Origin: Gemmatimonadota bacterium
Lineage (GTDB): Bacteria > Gemmatimonadota > Gemmatimonadetes > Gemmatimonadales > GWC2-71-9
DNA: 48,223 nucleotides
Direction: 5' to 3'
NCBI GenBank assembly: GCA_003223415.1
Contig: QHUY01000006.1
Location: 19,676-67,898, forward strand
Below are positions 24,299 to 30,613 of this stretch, one piece after another. The first letter of the stretch is position 1. Each line of letters starts with the position of its first letter. The translations under genes and the position numbers were made by a program. The notes under the pieces were generated by a model. The model searched no databases. It had not been told where the DNA came from and worked only from the letters and a program-made list of their open reading frames with translations.

Positions 24299-25016
24299 AC
24301 AGATTCCGAATCACCTTGTCCGCTGTAAACACGTTCGGGAAGAACACCCGGTCGCTGAGCCGGTTGAAGGCAGCCCGCAGTGCCGGGAAGCGCCCGGCGG
24401 CTTCCCGGTAGATCCCCGCCACCCCAAACCGTTCGGCCAGCACGTGCCGTGAAGCGAGGTCGTAGCCCTGCCGGCCAAGCTCATCGTAGTAGAGCAGGTC
24501 GGGCCCGCCGGCCCGCAGCCGCCGCGCCGCGATGTAGTCGGGGAAGAGCCCGGCGAGCCACAGGCTGTAGTTCCCCAGGTGCGCCTGCAGCAAGAAGCCC
24601 CGCTCGGCGCCCTCCGGCTCCTGCGACAGGTCGCTGACGATATCCACCAGATAATTGTAGGTTTGGTCGTCGGAGACCCCCCCGCCTCCGCCGATTCGCG
24701 CGTGGCGGTTGTGCTGACCGAACTCCAGCAGCAGGGCGGCGAGGTAATCGGCCAGGTCGCGGTCGTCGACGCCGGCGGCGAGCAGCGTATGCCGCACCGC
24801 CACGTAAGTGAACAGCGGGGGCGAGGGGACGACCAGGGAGCGCAAGGCGAGGAGCCCTTCGAGCAAGCCGGGCTCGTCGAGCAGCGCGTCCGGGCCCTCG
24901 GCCAGGAGTCGGCGCTCGGCGCGCGCGGCGACCGCCGGGTCGCCCCGCGCCAGGGCCAGGACCACCAACCGGAAGTCGGCACCGCGCAGCCGACCCCGCA
25001 CATTGGCGAGGATCAT
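24297..25016 (-). CDS. Conserved-looking helical protein of unknown function
   Basis: 239 aa from ATG 25016. Mostly alpha-helical, with LVVLALARGDPAVAARAERRLLAEG resembling a helical-repeat start, a glycine run in ARIGGGGGVSDDQTYNYLVDIVSDL, and a Tyr-rich centre (LLYYDELGRQGYDLASRH). No signal peptide and no family I recognise. The start codon overlaps that of the divergent histidine kinase by 2 nt, so either one start is further in or regulatory DNA lies inside the partner gene. Confidence 0.75.
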   Translation of the reverse strand: MILANVRGRLRGADFRLVVLALARGDPAVAARAERRLLAEGPDALLDEPGLLEGLLALRSLVVPSPPLFTYVAVRHTLLAAGVDDRDLADYLAALLLEFGQHNRHARIGGGGGVSDDQTYNYLVDIVSDLSQEPEGAERGFLLQAHLGNYSLWLAGLFPDYIAARRLRAGGPDLLYYDELGRQGYDLASRHVLAERFGVAGIYREAAGRFPALRAAFNRLSDRVFFPNVFTADKVIRNL

Positions 25017-26967
25017 GAGTAAGCCTCCAGCCAAACGACCTACGCCTCGAGGGGCGACGCAGGTACTGGAGCGCCTCACGGCGCTGTCCCAGGAACTGGC
25101 CGGCGCCTACCGGCCGGCGACCGTCGTGGAGATCATGGCCCGGGCCCTCAGTGACAGCCTCGCACCCGAGCGGCTCTCCATCTCGCTCCTCGACATCGAT
25201 GCCAACCGGCTCGTCGTCTCCTACGACAGCGGCGCCGAGCCAGTGCCGACCGACGATCCACTGCTGCAGCTCGCTCTGGGGCGCGGCCCGCTGGTGTTCA
25301 AGCGGGACGTCGCGGCGGAGGCCGCGAAACTGGGGGCGACTGTGCGCGACGCGCCGCCGTCGTGGCTGGGCGCCCCCATCGCCGCCACCGGCCGTACCAT
25401 CGGCGCCGTGTCGGTCTCCGGCGCGCGCACTGGAGCGTACGGACCGCGCGAGCTTGAGGTCGTCAAGGCGATCGCCGCCCAGGCAGCGATCGCGCTCGAA
25501 AACGCGCGGCTCGTCGAGCTCCTCTCGAGCGGCAAGCGACAGTGGGAGCTCACCGTGGACGCGATCACGCAGGCCATCTGCATCGTCGACGCCCGGGGCG
25601 TCGTTCGGCGCGCCAACCGCGTCTTCGCCGGACTGATTCAGGTCCCCGTCACCGCACTCGCGGGCCGCCCCTGGATGGAGCTGCTGCCGACCGCCTGGGC
25701 TGAGGTCGTCGCCCACGCGCTGGGCCAGCCCGGCTCGCCCCCCACGGAGGTGCGCTCCGGAGACCGCATCTTCCTCGTCAGCGCCGTGCCGATCGCCGGC
25801 GACCAGGGTGGCGCGGCGGTGCTGCTGTTCGAGGACCAGACGGACAAGCGGCGCCTGCAGGACCAGCTCATACAGTCTGAGAAAATGTCCGCGATTGGTC
25901 AACTCATCGCTGGGGTTGCCCACGATTTGAACAACCCGCTGGCCTCGGTGGTGGGTTTCAGCGACTTCCTGGCGGAGGCCGGGGAGGTGCCCCCGAACCT
26001 CGCCGAGCCGCTGCAGGTGATCCGCCAGGAAGCCGAGCGGGCCGCCAACATCGTTAAAAACCTGCTCAACTTCGCCCGAAAGCAGGAAGCCGAGCGACGC
26101 CACCACCCCATCCGGCCGGTGCTCGAGTCGACCCTGGCATTGCTGCGCAACCAGCTGATGGCCCTCAAGGTTGAGGCCGCGCTCCACGTGGAGCCGGGCG
26201 TGCCGGACGTGGAAATGATCCCCAACCAGATCGCCCAGGTGTTCGTGAACCTGGTGAACAACGCCGCCCAGGCGATCGCGACCACCGGGCGGAGCGGCCA
26301 TGTCCGGATCACGGCCCGCAAGTGGCTCGACGGCGTTGCCGTGACCGTGTCGGACGACGGGCCGGGCATCTCCGAAGAGATCGCCGCCCGCATCTTCGAG
26401 CCCTTCTTCACGACCAAGTCCGAGGGCGAGGGGACAGGGCTTGGCCTCTCGATCTGCCAGGGCATCGTGACGGAGCATGGGGGTCGCATCACCTTCGAAT
26501 CGAGCCCCGGCGCGGGCGCCAGGTTCACCGTGGAGCTCCCCGGCGCGCCGCACCAGGCCAAGTCCCAGGAGTCGCCGGAGGCACTGGCGCCGGGCACGCC
26601 CCTGCGAATCCTCATCGTCGACGACGAGCCTCACATCCTGCACTACATGCGCGCCACGCTCGAGAGCTGGGGCCACCACGTCGACGTCGCGACCGACGGA
26701 GGCCAGGCCCTGACCCGCGCCCTCACCCAGCCGTTCGACGTGATCATCTGCGACCTGCGCATGCCGCGGCTCGGCGGCCGGGAGATGTTCCAGAACCTCG
26801 TCCGGATGCACCCCCAGGTGGCCGAGCGGATCATCTTCGCCACCGGCGACACCGTGCGCGGCGACACGCTGCAGTTTCTCGAAAGCCTCGGCCGGCCCTA
26901 CCTCCACAAGCCGTTCACCCTCGCCGAGCTGCGCAGCGTGCTCGGCCGCGTCACCCCCGCCAACTGA
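25015..26967 (+). CDS. Hybrid sensor histidine kinase with GAF, PAS and receiver domains
   Basis: 650 aa with no transmembrane segment, so a cytoplasmic sensor. GAF domain about 40-165 (PSWLGAPIAATGRTIGAVSVSG); PAS about 175-280 (AICIVDARGVVRRANRVF); HisKA with phospho-accepting His303 in VAHDLNNPLASVVGF; ATPase with NLVNNAAQAI (N box), DDGPGI (G1) and GEGTGLGLSICQG (G2); C-terminal receiver with LIVDDEPHI and phospho-acceptor Asp580 in IICDLRMPRLGG. It lacks an output domain, so signalling must pass to another protein. ATG 25015 gives a natural N-terminus. Confidence 0.93.
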   Translation: MSKPPAKRPTPRGATQVLERLTALSQELAGAYRPATVVEIMARALSDSLAPERLSISLLDIDANRLVVSYDSGAEPVPTDDPLLQLALGRGPLVFKRDVAAEAAKLGATVRDAPPSWLGAPIAATGRTIGAVSVSGARTGAYGPRELEVVKAIAAQAAIALENARLVELLSSGKRQWELTVDAITQAICIVDARGVVRRANRVFAGLIQVPVTALAGRPWMELLPTAWAEVVAHALGQPGSPPTEVRSGDRIFLVSAVPIAGDQGGAAVLLFEDQTDKRRLQDQLIQSEKMSAIGQLIAGVAHDLNNPLASVVGFSDFLAEAGEVPPNLAEPLQVIRQEAERAANIVKNLLNFARKQEAERRHHPIRPVLESTLALLRNQLMALKVEAALHVEPGVPDVEMIPNQIAQVFVNLVNNAAQAIATTGRSGHVRITARKWLDGVAVTVSDDGPGISEEIAARIFEPFFTTKSEGEGTGLGLSICQGIVTEHGGRITFESSPGAGARFTVELPGAPHQAKSQESPEALAPGTPLRILIVDDEPHILHYMRATLESWGHHVDVATDGGQALTRALTQPFDVIICDLRMPRLGGREMFQNLVRMHPQVAERIIFATGDTVRGDTLQFLESLGRPYLHKPFTLAELRSVLGRVTPAN

Positions 26968-26971
26968 CCGA

Positions 26972-26988
26972 CCCCCCCCCCCCCCCCC
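26972..26988. repeat. Poly-C tract (17 nt)
   Basis: Seventeen C in a row fill most of the 20-nt gap between the kinase stop and the glycosyltransferase. The region where a Shine-Dalgarno site and start codon should be is the homopolymer itself. Confidence 0.9.
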
Positions 26989-28118
26989 TGCGCGTCCTTC
27001 AGGTCGACTCCGGCCGCGAGTGGCGGGGTGGCCAGAACCAAGTGCGGCTACTCTGCCGGGAGCTGGCGCGGGAACGAGACGTGGAGCTACGACTCGCGAC
27101 GAAACCCGGCAGCGAGCTGATGCAACGGTGCTTGGCCGCAGGGGTGCTCGTGCACGGCGTCCCCTGGGGAATCAGCCTTGACCCTCGCGCGTGGTGGTAT
27201 CTCCGCAGATTCCTTTGGAGCTTTCGCCCCGACGTCGTTCATGTCCACGACAGCCACGCCCTGACGCTCGTTCGGGCCGCCCTGTGGGATATGACCCGGC
27301 CCGCGCTCCCGGGACCCGGGCGCTGGGATCCGCTGCGCCGCTGGCGCGCCCGACTCACCGCACCGTGGCGTCACGCGGACTGGAACCCTCCGGCGCTGGT
27401 GGCGCACCGGCGCGTCGACTTTCGCCTGCGGCGGCCCGGTCAATGGCTCCGCGCCGATCGCGTGATCGCCGTTTCTGAAGCGGTCAAGCGCGTCCTGATC
27501 TCCGATGGGGTGAGCCCTCGCAACGTCACCGTCGTCCCCGACGGCATCGACCTCGACGAGGTCCACCGCGCCGCCGCCGCCCCTCTTGGGATCCACGGGC
27601 GGTTGGGTCTGCCGCCCGGTGCGCCGGTCGCCGTCAACGTTGCCGCGCTGGTTGGCCACAAGGACCAGCGCACGCTGATCCGCGCCGCCCGCGCCGCCCG
27701 CGACCTTGCCCCCGACCTGCACTGGGTCGTTGCGGGCGAGGGCGAGTTGCGTTCCTCCCTCGAGCGCGAGATCGCCGACCTCGGCGTCGGGGACCGCGTG
27801 CACTTGCTGGGATTTGTGTCGGCGGTCGACGCACTCCTCCGGGAGGGGGATGTCTTGGTGATGTCCTCGAAGCAAGAGGGACTCGGCAGCGTGGTGCTAC
27901 ACGCCCTCGCGCTCGGCAAACCCGTGGTCGCGACCCGGGCCGGCGGGCTGCCGGAGATCGTCCCGACCGAATGGCTCGTGCCGGTCGGAGACCCCGCGGA
28001 GCTGGCGCGCAGGGTGGTCGACGCGCTGGGCCACCATCCCCCGGTCCCCTTTCCCCAGCAGTGCACGGCCGTTGCGATGGCGCAGGCCGTGTTGGCCTGC
28101 TATCGCTCGCTGGCCTAG
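26988..28118 (+). CDS. Glycosyltransferase family 4 (GT-B), start codon obscured by poly-C
   Basis: About 376 aa. The N-terminus LRVLQVDSGREWRGGQNQVRLL is the usual family start except that CTG stands where ATG is expected, right at the edge of a 17-nt C run. C-terminal GT4 signatures: VAALVGHKDQRTLIRAA, WVVAGEGELRSSLE and MSSKQEGLGSVVLHALALGKPVVAT. GT4 enzymes transfer sugar from a nucleotide donor. With the GT2 gene behind it, an envelope polysaccharide or LPS role is likely. The coordinates include the CTG as a provisional start; the true start may be altered by an assembly fault. Confidence 0.8.
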   Translation: MRVLQVDSGREWRGGQNQVRLLCRELARERDVELRLATKPGSELMQRCLAAGVLVHGVPWGISLDPRAWWYLRRFLWSFRPDVVHVHDSHALTLVRAALWDMTRPALPGPGRWDPLRRWRARLTAPWRHADWNPPALVAHRRVDFRLRRPGQWLRADRVIAVSEAVKRVLISDGVSPRNVTVVPDGIDLDEVHRAAAAPLGIHGRLGLPPGAPVAVNVAALVGHKDQRTLIRAARAARDLAPDLHWVVAGEGELRSSLEREIADLGVGDRVHLLGFVSAVDALLREGDVLVMSSKQEGLGSVVLHALALGKPVVATRAGGLPEIVPTEWLVPVGDPAELARRVVDALGHHPPVPFPQQCTAVAMAQAVLACYRSLA

Positions 28119-28133: not shown

Positions 28134-29660
28134 ATGATCTACGTCTGCGTTCCGGTGCACAACGAGGCCAGGACGGCCGGTCTGGTGCTCTGGAAGGTGC
28201 GGCAGGTCTTCACGGCCTTCCAACGCGAGTATCAGCTGCTGGTGTGCGACGACGGGTCCACCGACGGCACCGCCGCGGTGCTCGCCACCTACGCTCGTGT
28301 GTTGCCGATGACGGTCGTGACCCACGGGGAGCGGGCGGGCTACGCCCGGAGCCTCGAGGAGCTGCTCCGGCTCGCCCTGCAGCGGACCGACCGGCCCAAG
28401 CGCGACTGCGCCATCGTCATCCACGGCGACTTCGCGCACGCGCCGGAGGCGATGGAGGAGATGGTGAAGAAGCTGGAGTCGGGCGCGGACCTGGTGGTCG
28501 CCGAGCAGCTGCGCGAGATCGGCCCAACGCCGTGGAGCCTGCGCGTGGCGCGCCGGCTGACGCCGCGCCTGCTCCCCATCGCCGGCGTGCGGGACACGGT
28601 CTCCGGGTACCTCGCATTGCGCCTCACGGTGCTCCGGCAAGCGACCCGCGGCGACGCACCGCCCGGCCATTCACTGCTCAGCACCGACGGCTGGTGCGCC
28701 AACGCCGAGCTGCTCGCCCGACTGGCGCCGCACGCGCGTCGTGTCGAGACCGTGAGCGCGGCCGCCCGCTACGACCTGCACCAGCGGCCCTCTCGTGTGC
28801 GGCCCTGGCAGGAGCTGGTCGCCGCCTGGCGCGCCCGCTCCGTGATCCGCGCCGTCCGAGCGGCCACGGCCGCCACCACGGTCACGCTGGTGCTTCTGGC
28901 GGCGCCGCTGCGCGGTCAAAACGATTCCTCCCGCGCCTCGGCCGGGCTGCCGATCGGGGCGGTCGTCGAGGTCCCGCCTCCGCCCCCGAGTCCCGTCCCG
29001 TTCAGAGTGGGGGAGCGGCTCCGCTACCAGGCCAAGTACGGGATCTTCAACGTCGGCACCGCTACTATGGAGGTCGCCGGCCTCGACACACTGCGGGGCG
29101 TCGAAACGGTCCATTTCGTGTTCCGTATCGTCGGCGGCGCGCTGTGGTACCACCTCGACCAGACGATGGAGTCGTGGGTCGGCAAGCGCGATTTTCGCTC
29201 CCGCCGCTTCCTGCAGGACACGGACGAGCGCGGCAGGCAGTGGCACCGCGGCTACGAGATCTTCCCCGACTCGGGGTTCTACCGCGAGGAGGGGAAGGAC
29301 TCCACCTTCCCCACCGTGGCGGAGCCACTCGACGACGCCGCTTTCCTGTACTGGATCCGCACAGTGCCGCTGGACCAGGGCAAGCGCTACGAGTACCGCC
29401 GCTACTTCCGGCCCGACCGCAATCCGGTCATCGTGACGGTCGTGGGCCACGAGCGCGTGAGCGTCGCGGGACACAAGTGGAACGCCATTGTCGTCCGCCC
29501 GGCGATTCCCAACGGGCGCGGCATCTTCGCCGAGAAGGCAGACGCGCGGATGTGGCTCTCCGATGACGATCGCCGCATCATGCTGGCGTTGCAGTCCAAA
29601 TTCTCGTTCGGCCAGGTCACGCTGAAGCTCAAGGAGTACGCAGTCCCGGAGCAGCCATGA
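28134..29660 (+). CDS. Fusion of a GT2 glycosyltransferase and a DUF3108 protein
   Basis: 508 aa. Residues 1 to about 235 are a GT2 (GT-A) domain: VCVPVHNEARTAGLVLWKV, LLVCDDGSTDGT and IVIHGDFAHAPEAM. At about 243-262 (ATAATTVTLVLLAAPLRGQ) there is a hydrophobic stretch that looks like a signal peptide or single membrane helix. From about 283 the sequence fits DUF3108: PFRVGERLRYQAKYGIFNVGTATMEV and YRRYFRPDRNPVIV. DUF3108 proteins are normally exported as separate proteins, so this chain would place a cytoplasmic glycosyltransferase and a periplasmic domain on either side of the membrane. A GTG at about 28842 could start the second half on its own. The stop overlaps the next ATG. Confidence 0.75.
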   Translation: MIYVCVPVHNEARTAGLVLWKVRQVFTAFQREYQLLVCDDGSTDGTAAVLATYARVLPMTVVTHGERAGYARSLEELLRLALQRTDRPKRDCAIVIHGDFAHAPEAMEEMVKKLESGADLVVAEQLREIGPTPWSLRVARRLTPRLLPIAGVRDTVSGYLALRLTVLRQATRGDAPPGHSLLSTDGWCANAELLARLAPHARRVETVSAAARYDLHQRPSRVRPWQELVAAWRARSVIRAVRAATAATTVTLVLLAAPLRGQNDSSRASAGLPIGAVVEVPPPPPSPVPFRVGERLRYQAKYGIFNVGTATMEVAGLDTLRGVETVHFVFRIVGGALWYHLDQTMESWVGKRDFRSRRFLQDTDERGRQWHRGYEIFPDSGFYREEGKDSTFPTVAEPLDDAAFLYWIRTVPLDQGKRYEYRRYFRPDRNPVIVTVVGHERVSVAGHKWNAIVVRPAIPNGRGIFAEKADARMWLSDDDRRIMLALQSKFSFGQVTLKLKEYAVPEQP

Positions 29661-30613
29661 CCGACTACCGCGAGGCGGACTTCAGCCACCTCAAGACCGT
29701 CCCCATCGCCCAGCGTTCCAACCGAGTCGAACCCGCCCTCCTCGCCCATCCCCCCGGCCCGGACCGCAGCTTCGCCGCCTTCTGGAGCGCCCTCCCCGAC
29801 ATCCTCGCCGCCCGCGACCTGCGTCTCGTGGTCGACCAGACCGCGCAGGCGGCCGGCCGTCGCGCCGTCGTGACCATGCTCGGCGGCCACGTGATCAAGG
29901 TCGGTCTGGGACCGCTGCTCATCGAGCTGCTGCGGCGCAAGGTCATCACCCATGTGGCGATGAACGGCAGCGCGGCGATCCACGATTTCGAGCTTGCCGC
30001 CTACGGCGGCACCAGCGAAGACGTGGCCGCCGGCCTGGTCGACGGAACGTTCGGCATGGCCGAAGAGACCGGCCGGGAGATGAACGCCGCGGTAGCCGCC
30101 GGCGCCCGCGAGCAGCGCGGCATGGGCGAGGCGCTCGCCCGCTGTCTGCAGCAGCGGAAGGGGCTCCCCGGACGCGCCGTGTCCGTGCTCGTCGCGTGCG
30201 AGGACCTCGGCGTGCCGGTCACGGTACACGCGGCGGTCGGCGCGGAGATCATCCACCAGCACCCCACCGCCGACGGCGCGGCACTCGGCGCCACGAGCCA
30301 CCGCGACTTCAAGCGGCTCGCCGCGGCACTCCCCGACCTCGACGGAGGGGGGGTAGTACTCAATCTGGGCAGCGCGGTGGTGATGCCCGAGGTGTTCCTC
30401 AAAGCGCTCACCGTCGCTCGCAACCTGCACGCCGGCCGGCCCACGGACTTCACGGCCTGCGACTGCGACATGCAGCGGCACTACCGCCCGCGCGTCAACG
30501 TGGTGGAGCGACCGACCCAGCAGGGCGGCCGGGGGGTCATGCTGACCGGTCACCATGAGATCCTGTTTCCCCTGCTCTGCTGGGGAGTGCTCCAACGGCT
30601 GGATGGGCACTAA
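29657..30613 (+). CDS. Deoxyhypusine synthase-like family protein
   Basis: 318 aa, overlapping the previous gene by 4 nt. The pattern VTMLGGHVIKVGLGPLLIELLRRKVITHVAMNGSAAIHDFELA followed by EDVAAGLVDGTFGMAEETG recalls bacterial proteins annotated as deoxyhypusine-synthase family, a Rossmann-like NAD fold. True deoxyhypusine synthase modifies eIF5A, which bacteria lack, so the role must differ. The neighbours (GT4, GT2, lipoprotein) suggest envelope sugar metabolism, by inference. Assignment from memory of the family, not from a search. Confidence 0.5.
   Translation: MTDYREADFSHLKTVPIAQRSNRVEPALLAHPPGPDRSFAAFWSALPDILAARDLRLVVDQTAQAAGRRAVVTMLGGHVIKVGLGPLLIELLRRKVITHVAMNGSAAIHDFELAAYGGTSEDVAAGLVDGTFGMAEETGREMNAAVAAGAREQRGMGEALARCLQQRKGLPGRAVSVLVACEDLGVPVTVHAAVGAEIIHQHPTADGAALGATSHRDFKRLAAALPDLDGGGVVLNLGSAVVMPEVFLKALTVARNLHAGRPTDFTACDCDMQRHYRPRVNVVERPTQQGGRGVMLTGHHEILFPLLCWGVLQRLDGH

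Follow-up and report, generated by a model that had tools for sequence, protein, structure and literature searches.

The window analysed here is a stretch of 48,223 nucleotides from a Gemmatimonadota bacterium. Its forward strand carries an open reading frame (28134-29660) that begins with ATG, ends with TGA and encodes 508 amino acids without an internal stop. Two Pfam domains were matched within it: PF00535, a GT2 glycosyltransferase, at residues 4-132 (7e-15; 55.8 bits against a curated cut-off of 23.3), and PF11306, or DUF3108, at residues 297-500 (9.5e-28; 97.9 bits against a curated cut-off of 26). The original prediction that the GT2 runs without a stop into a signal-like segment and a DUF3108 domain was thus confirmed. 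The GT2 part spans 28134-28838 and the DUF3108 domain 29022-29633. Between them lies a segment resembling a signal peptide (28836-28919; about residues 235-262), which reads SVIRAVRAATAATTVTLVLLAAPLRG|Q; in it, a hydrophobic core follows a basic stretch and is itself followed by a motif made of a small residue and Q. By sequence it divides into an n-region (about 28836-28877), an h-region, TVTLVLLAAPL (28878-28910), that forms its core, and a c-region in which signal peptidase I is proposed to cut between residue 261 and Q262 (28917-28919). A variable linker, recognised from an alignment of the fused sequences, leads from the cleavage motif to DUF3108 (28917-29021). An in-frame GTG (28842-28844), followed by A to give GTGA, stands within the n-region.

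The genes on either side of the fusion frame are encoded on the same strand. A GT4 glycosyltransferase gene (26967-28118; the frame matched by Pfam is 26967-28115) ends 15 nucleotides upstream, and a gene for a GSU2086-family protein (29657-30613) overlaps the stop of the fusion by four nucleotides (ATGA). Among 22 loci from the window's family (L054-L075), the GSU2086 family follows the fusion in all 22 and the GT4 gene precedes it in 21, the one exception (L057) beginning too late to show it; the order in the family is GT4, GT2-DUF3108, GSU2086 family. Directly before the GT4 gene the window also holds a hybrid sensor kinase with GAF, PAS, HisKA, HATPase and receiver domains (24808-26967), which recurs in the same position in 21 of the 22 loci, L057 again starting too late.

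Related genomes were searched for the same domain pair, as had been suggested as a check. Among the matches listed, the same uninterrupted frame was present in 28 of the 102 genomes of the window's family, distributed over nine genera, and the 27 other fusions were 66-78% identical to the frame in the window. GT2 and DUF3108 share one frame, with the signal-peptide-like segment inside it, in all 28 distinct full-length family sequences, and these form one clade with an SH-aLRT support of 100 in a quick tree. In a draw of 395 genomes from across the phylum Gemmatimonadota, to which the fusion survey was confined, at least 38 genomes matched both domains without interruption; 25 of them belong to the window's family and 13 to other families. 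For all 13 of the latter, the sequences confirmed the fusion and its internal signal-peptide-like segment. The loci of 22 named relatives come from metagenome-assembled genomes labelled Gemmatimonadetes bacterium; the depth labels in their names suggest soil, and one name says groundwater.

In other genera, GT2 and DUF3108 appear among the matches listed as separate matches. All 50 separate pairs that we collected were adjacent and on one strand. In 33 of them, an in-frame start codon, putatively the true start, overlaps the GT2 stop by four nucleotides; in nine others the two genes share a frame but are separated by a stop, and the remaining eight show neither arrangement. The GTGA at 28842 in the window is likely a relic of such a four-nucleotide stop/start overlap with an ancestral DUF3108 gene. 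The fusions may have arisen through a change of frame or, in same-frame pairs, through loss of the stop. Two separate pairs of family f4 (L112 and L122) have unusually long GT2 frames, of 503 and 325 residues, with DUF3108 in the same frame after a stop.

We mapped the fused and separate states onto a tree built from the two domains, with the junction left out. From 103 loci, 12 whose fetched stretch yielded just one member of the gene pair were dropped, and a 69-row set was drawn from the remaining 91 by leaving out 19 of the 28 family fusions (near relatives), L088 (a long branch) and L079 and L080 (near-copies of L077). The 69-row tree requires nine changes of state, eight of them forced by well-supported branches, and trees with a single change made up 0% of 200 bootstrap trees. 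A quick tree of all 91 rows requires 11 changes, nine of them forced. These counts do not distinguish a gain of the fusion from its loss, and the rows for separate genes were picked to cover genera rather than at random. Since nine changes are needed and eight are forced, the fused/separate state has changed repeatedly within the phylum.

With respect to enzyme type, the GT2 part is closest, among solved structures, to the DPM1/ArnC enzymes (profile match of 3.5e-16 to 5mlz_A). It contains the motifs DDGSTD and HxDF. Like the DPM1/ArnC-type polyprenyl-phosphate glycosyltransferases (5mlz, 9hwj), it has a largely conserved DDxSxD motif and the second aspartate of the DXD motif, D99, which is found in at least 90% of 27 sequences. 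Unlike these enzymes, it has H, Q or another residue in place of the first aspartate, and it does not have their multi-pass C-terminal membrane helices: a single short hydrophobic segment, the one between GT2 and DUF3108, is present. The GT2 half was poorly modelled in the full-length prediction (pLDDT below 50 over residues 1-287).

A model of DUF3108 alone reached a pLDDT of 86.9, and PF11306 matched 30 of the 30 aligned members scanned. Among the top-ranked structural matches, the best was EipB (6ntr_B; Z 15.2, rmsd 3.4, 203 residues aligned), the second-ranked an unrelated axonemal chain (Z 12.7), and further matches included 2h1t, 3fzx (Z 10.7) and the LolA entry 8t5j (Z 10.4). Foldseek hits include LprG, with one entry containing bound PIM, at modest TM-scores (best 0.58, rmsd 5.8). 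The DUF3108 profile had no sequence match in the PDB and no family match in NCBIfam. DUF3108 is predicted to adopt the beta-spiral fold of LolA, LprG and EipB, and it may likewise handle lipids, bearing in mind that a shared fold alone does not establish function. It resembles EipB (DUF1849, PDB 6NTR), LolA/LolB and LprG in this predicted periplasmic fold but belongs to a different sequence family, and EipB is a stand-alone periplasmic protein of unknown exact function. PMC10787603 describes EipB as a periplasmic envelope-integrity protein, encoded in a locus with LPS and envelope genes. Bacteroides BF2203 (3FZX), the structure cited for DUF3108 in PMC4364669, is itself a DUF3108 protein of similar fold; unlike the domain in the fusion, it is a stand-alone exported protein that does not stand behind a GT2.

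Outside the window's family, the neighbouring genes point to lipopolysaccharide synthesis. In 45 of 50 loci, an LpxL-type acyltransferase gene is found upstream in the same orientation, and an ABC transporter gene was found in 33 of 50, many fetched stretches ending before one could show. The transporter at L082 has the MsbA model as its best NCBIfam match at 485 bits, below the cut-off of 602, and L090 carries a gene of the GT9 heptosyltransferase family that exceeds the Pfam cut-off and stays below those of the NCBIfam models. Because L081 combines LpxL upstream with GSU2086 downstream, it ties the arrangement in the window to the LPS-associated one. In PMC5585712, Geobacter GSU2086 is listed as belonging to a sugar biosynthesis operon, with hldE and gmhA on either side of it. 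The link to LPS is weaker for the window's own family (L054-L075), where the neighbours are GT4 and GSU2086 rather than LpxL and MsbA, and for the three f2 loci, where LpxL is absent from the stretch that was fetched.

We next consider the segment between the two domains. By sequence rules implemented in our own scripts, the 28 family fusions have a positive n-region, a hydrophobic core and a small residue at -1, this last being P in two of the 28. Position +1 is Q in 28 of 28; -1 is A in 21, G in three, S in two and P in two; and -3 is L in 25, A in two and T in one. An [AGSP]Q motif follows within 23 residues of the h-region in 39 of 41 fused and 39 of 50 separate sequences. The basic region, the core and the [A/G/S]-Q motif are, in these sequences, kept in the fusions. 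The linker behind the motif, in contrast, varies freely in sequence and length in the alignment of the 28 fusions, and the distance from the GT2 tail to the start of DUF3108 ranges from 57 to 86 codons.

The motif resembles that of other exported proteins in the sample. Among signal-like N-termini that were not lipoproteins, xx[AGS]Q followed in 35 of 68, compared to 23 of 196 in the background; the sample comprised 98 N-termini from 657,574 bases of genomes G000 and G026 (L126-L165 and the window) and includes false positives. A smaller control of 16 proteins with signal peptides showed no enrichment (2/16 against a background of 2/16). Q directly after the signal peptidase site is common in the exported proteins of the Gemmatimonadota sampled, in the manner of the 'Q-rule'. 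That rule is described as specific to Bacteroidetes in PMC5837995, and the term Gemmatimonad is absent from the main text of that paper.

It was originally proposed that the hydrophobic segment is a lasting membrane helix. The corresponding alternative, an uncleaved protein with an N-in/C-out signal anchor that keeps GT2 on one face of the inner membrane and DUF3108 on the other, coupling the addition of sugar to a lipid with the handling of that lipid in the periplasm, is the main rival to the reading that we prefer. The single frame is compatible with it, and so is the net positive charge before the core, which is 3.6 in the fused sequences compared to 2.3 in the separate ones. An uncharged run of at least 19 residues, long enough for an anchor, occurs in 11 of 41 fused segments (and 12 of 50 separate ones); the window's own run is 17. 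Against an anchor, the median uncharged run is 15 residues in the fused sequences and 16 in the separate ones, core hydropathy stays near that of the separate genes (2.55 vs. 2.39), and the [AGSP]Q motif with its invariant Q at +1 is retained right beside a freely varying linker. The segment therefore looks more like a cleavable signal peptide than an anchor, and the short runs and the constant Q make a lasting helix less probable than was first proposed. We consider the anchored, two-faced protein unlikely, while still giving it the largest share among the alternatives. The accompanying expectation, that the inner membrane separates the two domains, is supported.

In the reading that we prefer, and to which we assign a probability of about 60%, the fusion is a precursor that signal peptidase I would split, leaving a GT2 with a short tail in the cytosol and a DUF3108 protein that handles lipids in the periplasm. 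The observations behind it are a single frame under purifying selection, the loss of the second start, the signal features, the repeated changes of state, the LPS-related neighbours in other families and the modelled fold. That the pair has been fused or split repeatedly with the export signal kept in the middle suggests one long product that is cleaved into two parts as it is exported. According to this model, one open reading frame would yield one precursor, whose N-terminal GT2 would fold in the cytoplasm and add a sugar while lipid A/LPS core, or a related glycolipid, is being synthesised. From its internal position, the former signal peptide would then start Sec translocation of DUF3108, and signal peptidase I would cut at [L]-x-[A/G/S]|Q. 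After the cut, GT2 would stay on the inner membrane by its short hydrophobic tail and DUF3108 would be released into the periplasm, where its spiral may handle the lipid-linked product. Fusion would in this way replace the translational coupling of overlapping genes with a fixed 1:1 ratio of synthesis.

The precursor model presupposes that DUF3108 is made from the long frame, whereas the original prediction had allowed for a separate start of DUF3108 at the GTG near 28842. Any start codon within 1-20 codons before the h-region was found in 15 of 41 fused sequences compared to 46 of 50 separate ones, and an ATG in none of 41 compared to 33 of 50. In 20-codon stretches elsewhere in the same fused frames, the corresponding levels are 0.71-0.76 for any start and 0.23-0.25 for ATG, a rough yardstick since it is taken from other parts of the frame and the R/A-rich n-region has fewer V, L and M codons. 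The h-region of L040 was mis-picked in the later linker in this count, and the alignment gives L040 no usable start either; in the four separate genes scored as startless (L009, L021, L024, L027), we read the overlapping start codon as lying at or within the interval that was picked. Across the 28 family fusions, the column that holds the window's GTG reads GTC in eight, ATC in five, GTG in four, CTG in four, CTC in two, GCG in two, and GTA, CGC and TTG in one each. An ATG, GTG or TTG that would give a signal peptide of 15-34 residues is lacking in 16 of the 28 and present in 12, the window included. As far as the codons tell, the old start has decayed in the fusions.

A conserved internal start was accordingly rejected as the general case, and the separate start at 28842 did not hold up as a feature of the family. 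A narrower form, in which the frame gives both the full-length protein and a DUF3108 product initiated at GTG 28842 or another weak codon, is conceivable for the 12 fusions that retain a start at a workable distance; in the window the GTG lies 25 codons upstream of the proposed cut, in the same GTGA context as the overlaps of separate relatives. Its restriction to four of 28 sequences, the shortage of start codons near the h-region relative to other parts of the frame and, by eye, the absence of a suitably spaced Shine-Dalgarno-like run upstream of 28842 speak against it, and we regard two products from one frame as improbable.

The integrity of the frame itself is supported by substitution patterns. 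In 30 close pairs analysed with our own script, dN/dS was lowest in the two domains (0.09 for GT2 and 0.08 for DUF3108), 0.16 across the GT2 tail and n-region, and highest in the h/c region (0.40) and the linker (0.39); values below 1 through the junction fit translation of the whole frame, junction included. Gap lengths in free nucleotide alignments of 26 pairs (43 of 71 gaps being multiples of three) were not clean and are not counted as evidence, nor are the 28 junction lengths, every one of which is by construction divisible by three. A 29th family member (L075/G081) has a run of N, an assembly gap, at the junction; it is uninformative and was rejected as a split member of the family. G069 and G062 have partial matches only, at contig starts. 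An error in sequencing or assembly, or a gene pair in decay, has next to no probability left: two-gene relatives are indeed numerous, as the original prediction had anticipated for an error, most of the data are draft genomes and the gap in L075/G081 falls exactly at the junction, but an error is rejected for the family clade, and excluded in the window, because the same open frame recurs in 28 family genomes of nine genera, both domains are under purifying selection and the old start has decayed.

The FbcH cytochrome b/c1 polyprotein of Bradyrhizobium offers a precedent: it is encoded by one gene, and signal peptidase splits the precursor at an internal signal sequence into two mature proteins, both of which are parts of one membrane complex. 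The GT2-DUF3108 fusion resembles FbcH in its single continuous frame with an internal segment like a signal peptide. It differs in pairing a cytosolic sugar transferase with an exported domain resembling a lipid carrier, and in that fused and separate forms alternate between lineages. Precursors split by signal peptidase are thus known in principle, and both domains belong to known families; what is unusual is this pairing, its repeated change between the fused and separate states, and a second start that has decayed while the cut site is kept. A literature search found no description of a GT2-DUF3108 fusion, which does not by itself establish its absence from the literature.

A broader interpretation, which we hold tentatively and at somewhat short of even odds, is that Gemmatimonadota have repeatedly made a translationally coupled LPS gene pair into a polyprotein with the ordinary signal peptidase as its processing protease, such that a cytosolic glycosyltransferase and its periplasmic lipid carrier would be made 1:1 from one start codon. 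In this view, the decayed second start and the retained cleavage motif would indicate that their separation now depends on the cut. A gene pair whose products are destined for different sides of the inner membrane has, more than once in one phylum, become one frame or been split again, and the export signal was kept and is apparently cleavable. If cleavage is borne out, the fusion would be a naturally occurring polyprotein of bacteria that signal peptidase processes, and its unfused relatives would serve as controls. The LpxL and ABC-transporter neighbours and the predicted EipB/LolA-like fold also link DUF3108, a family whose function is unknown, to LPS synthesis and give it a testable role. 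A second DUF3108 fusion was found in the same genome (L129:11064-13787; G000 contig C2), where a 907-residue open reading frame carries M16 peptidase domains followed by DUF3108 at residues 743-898.
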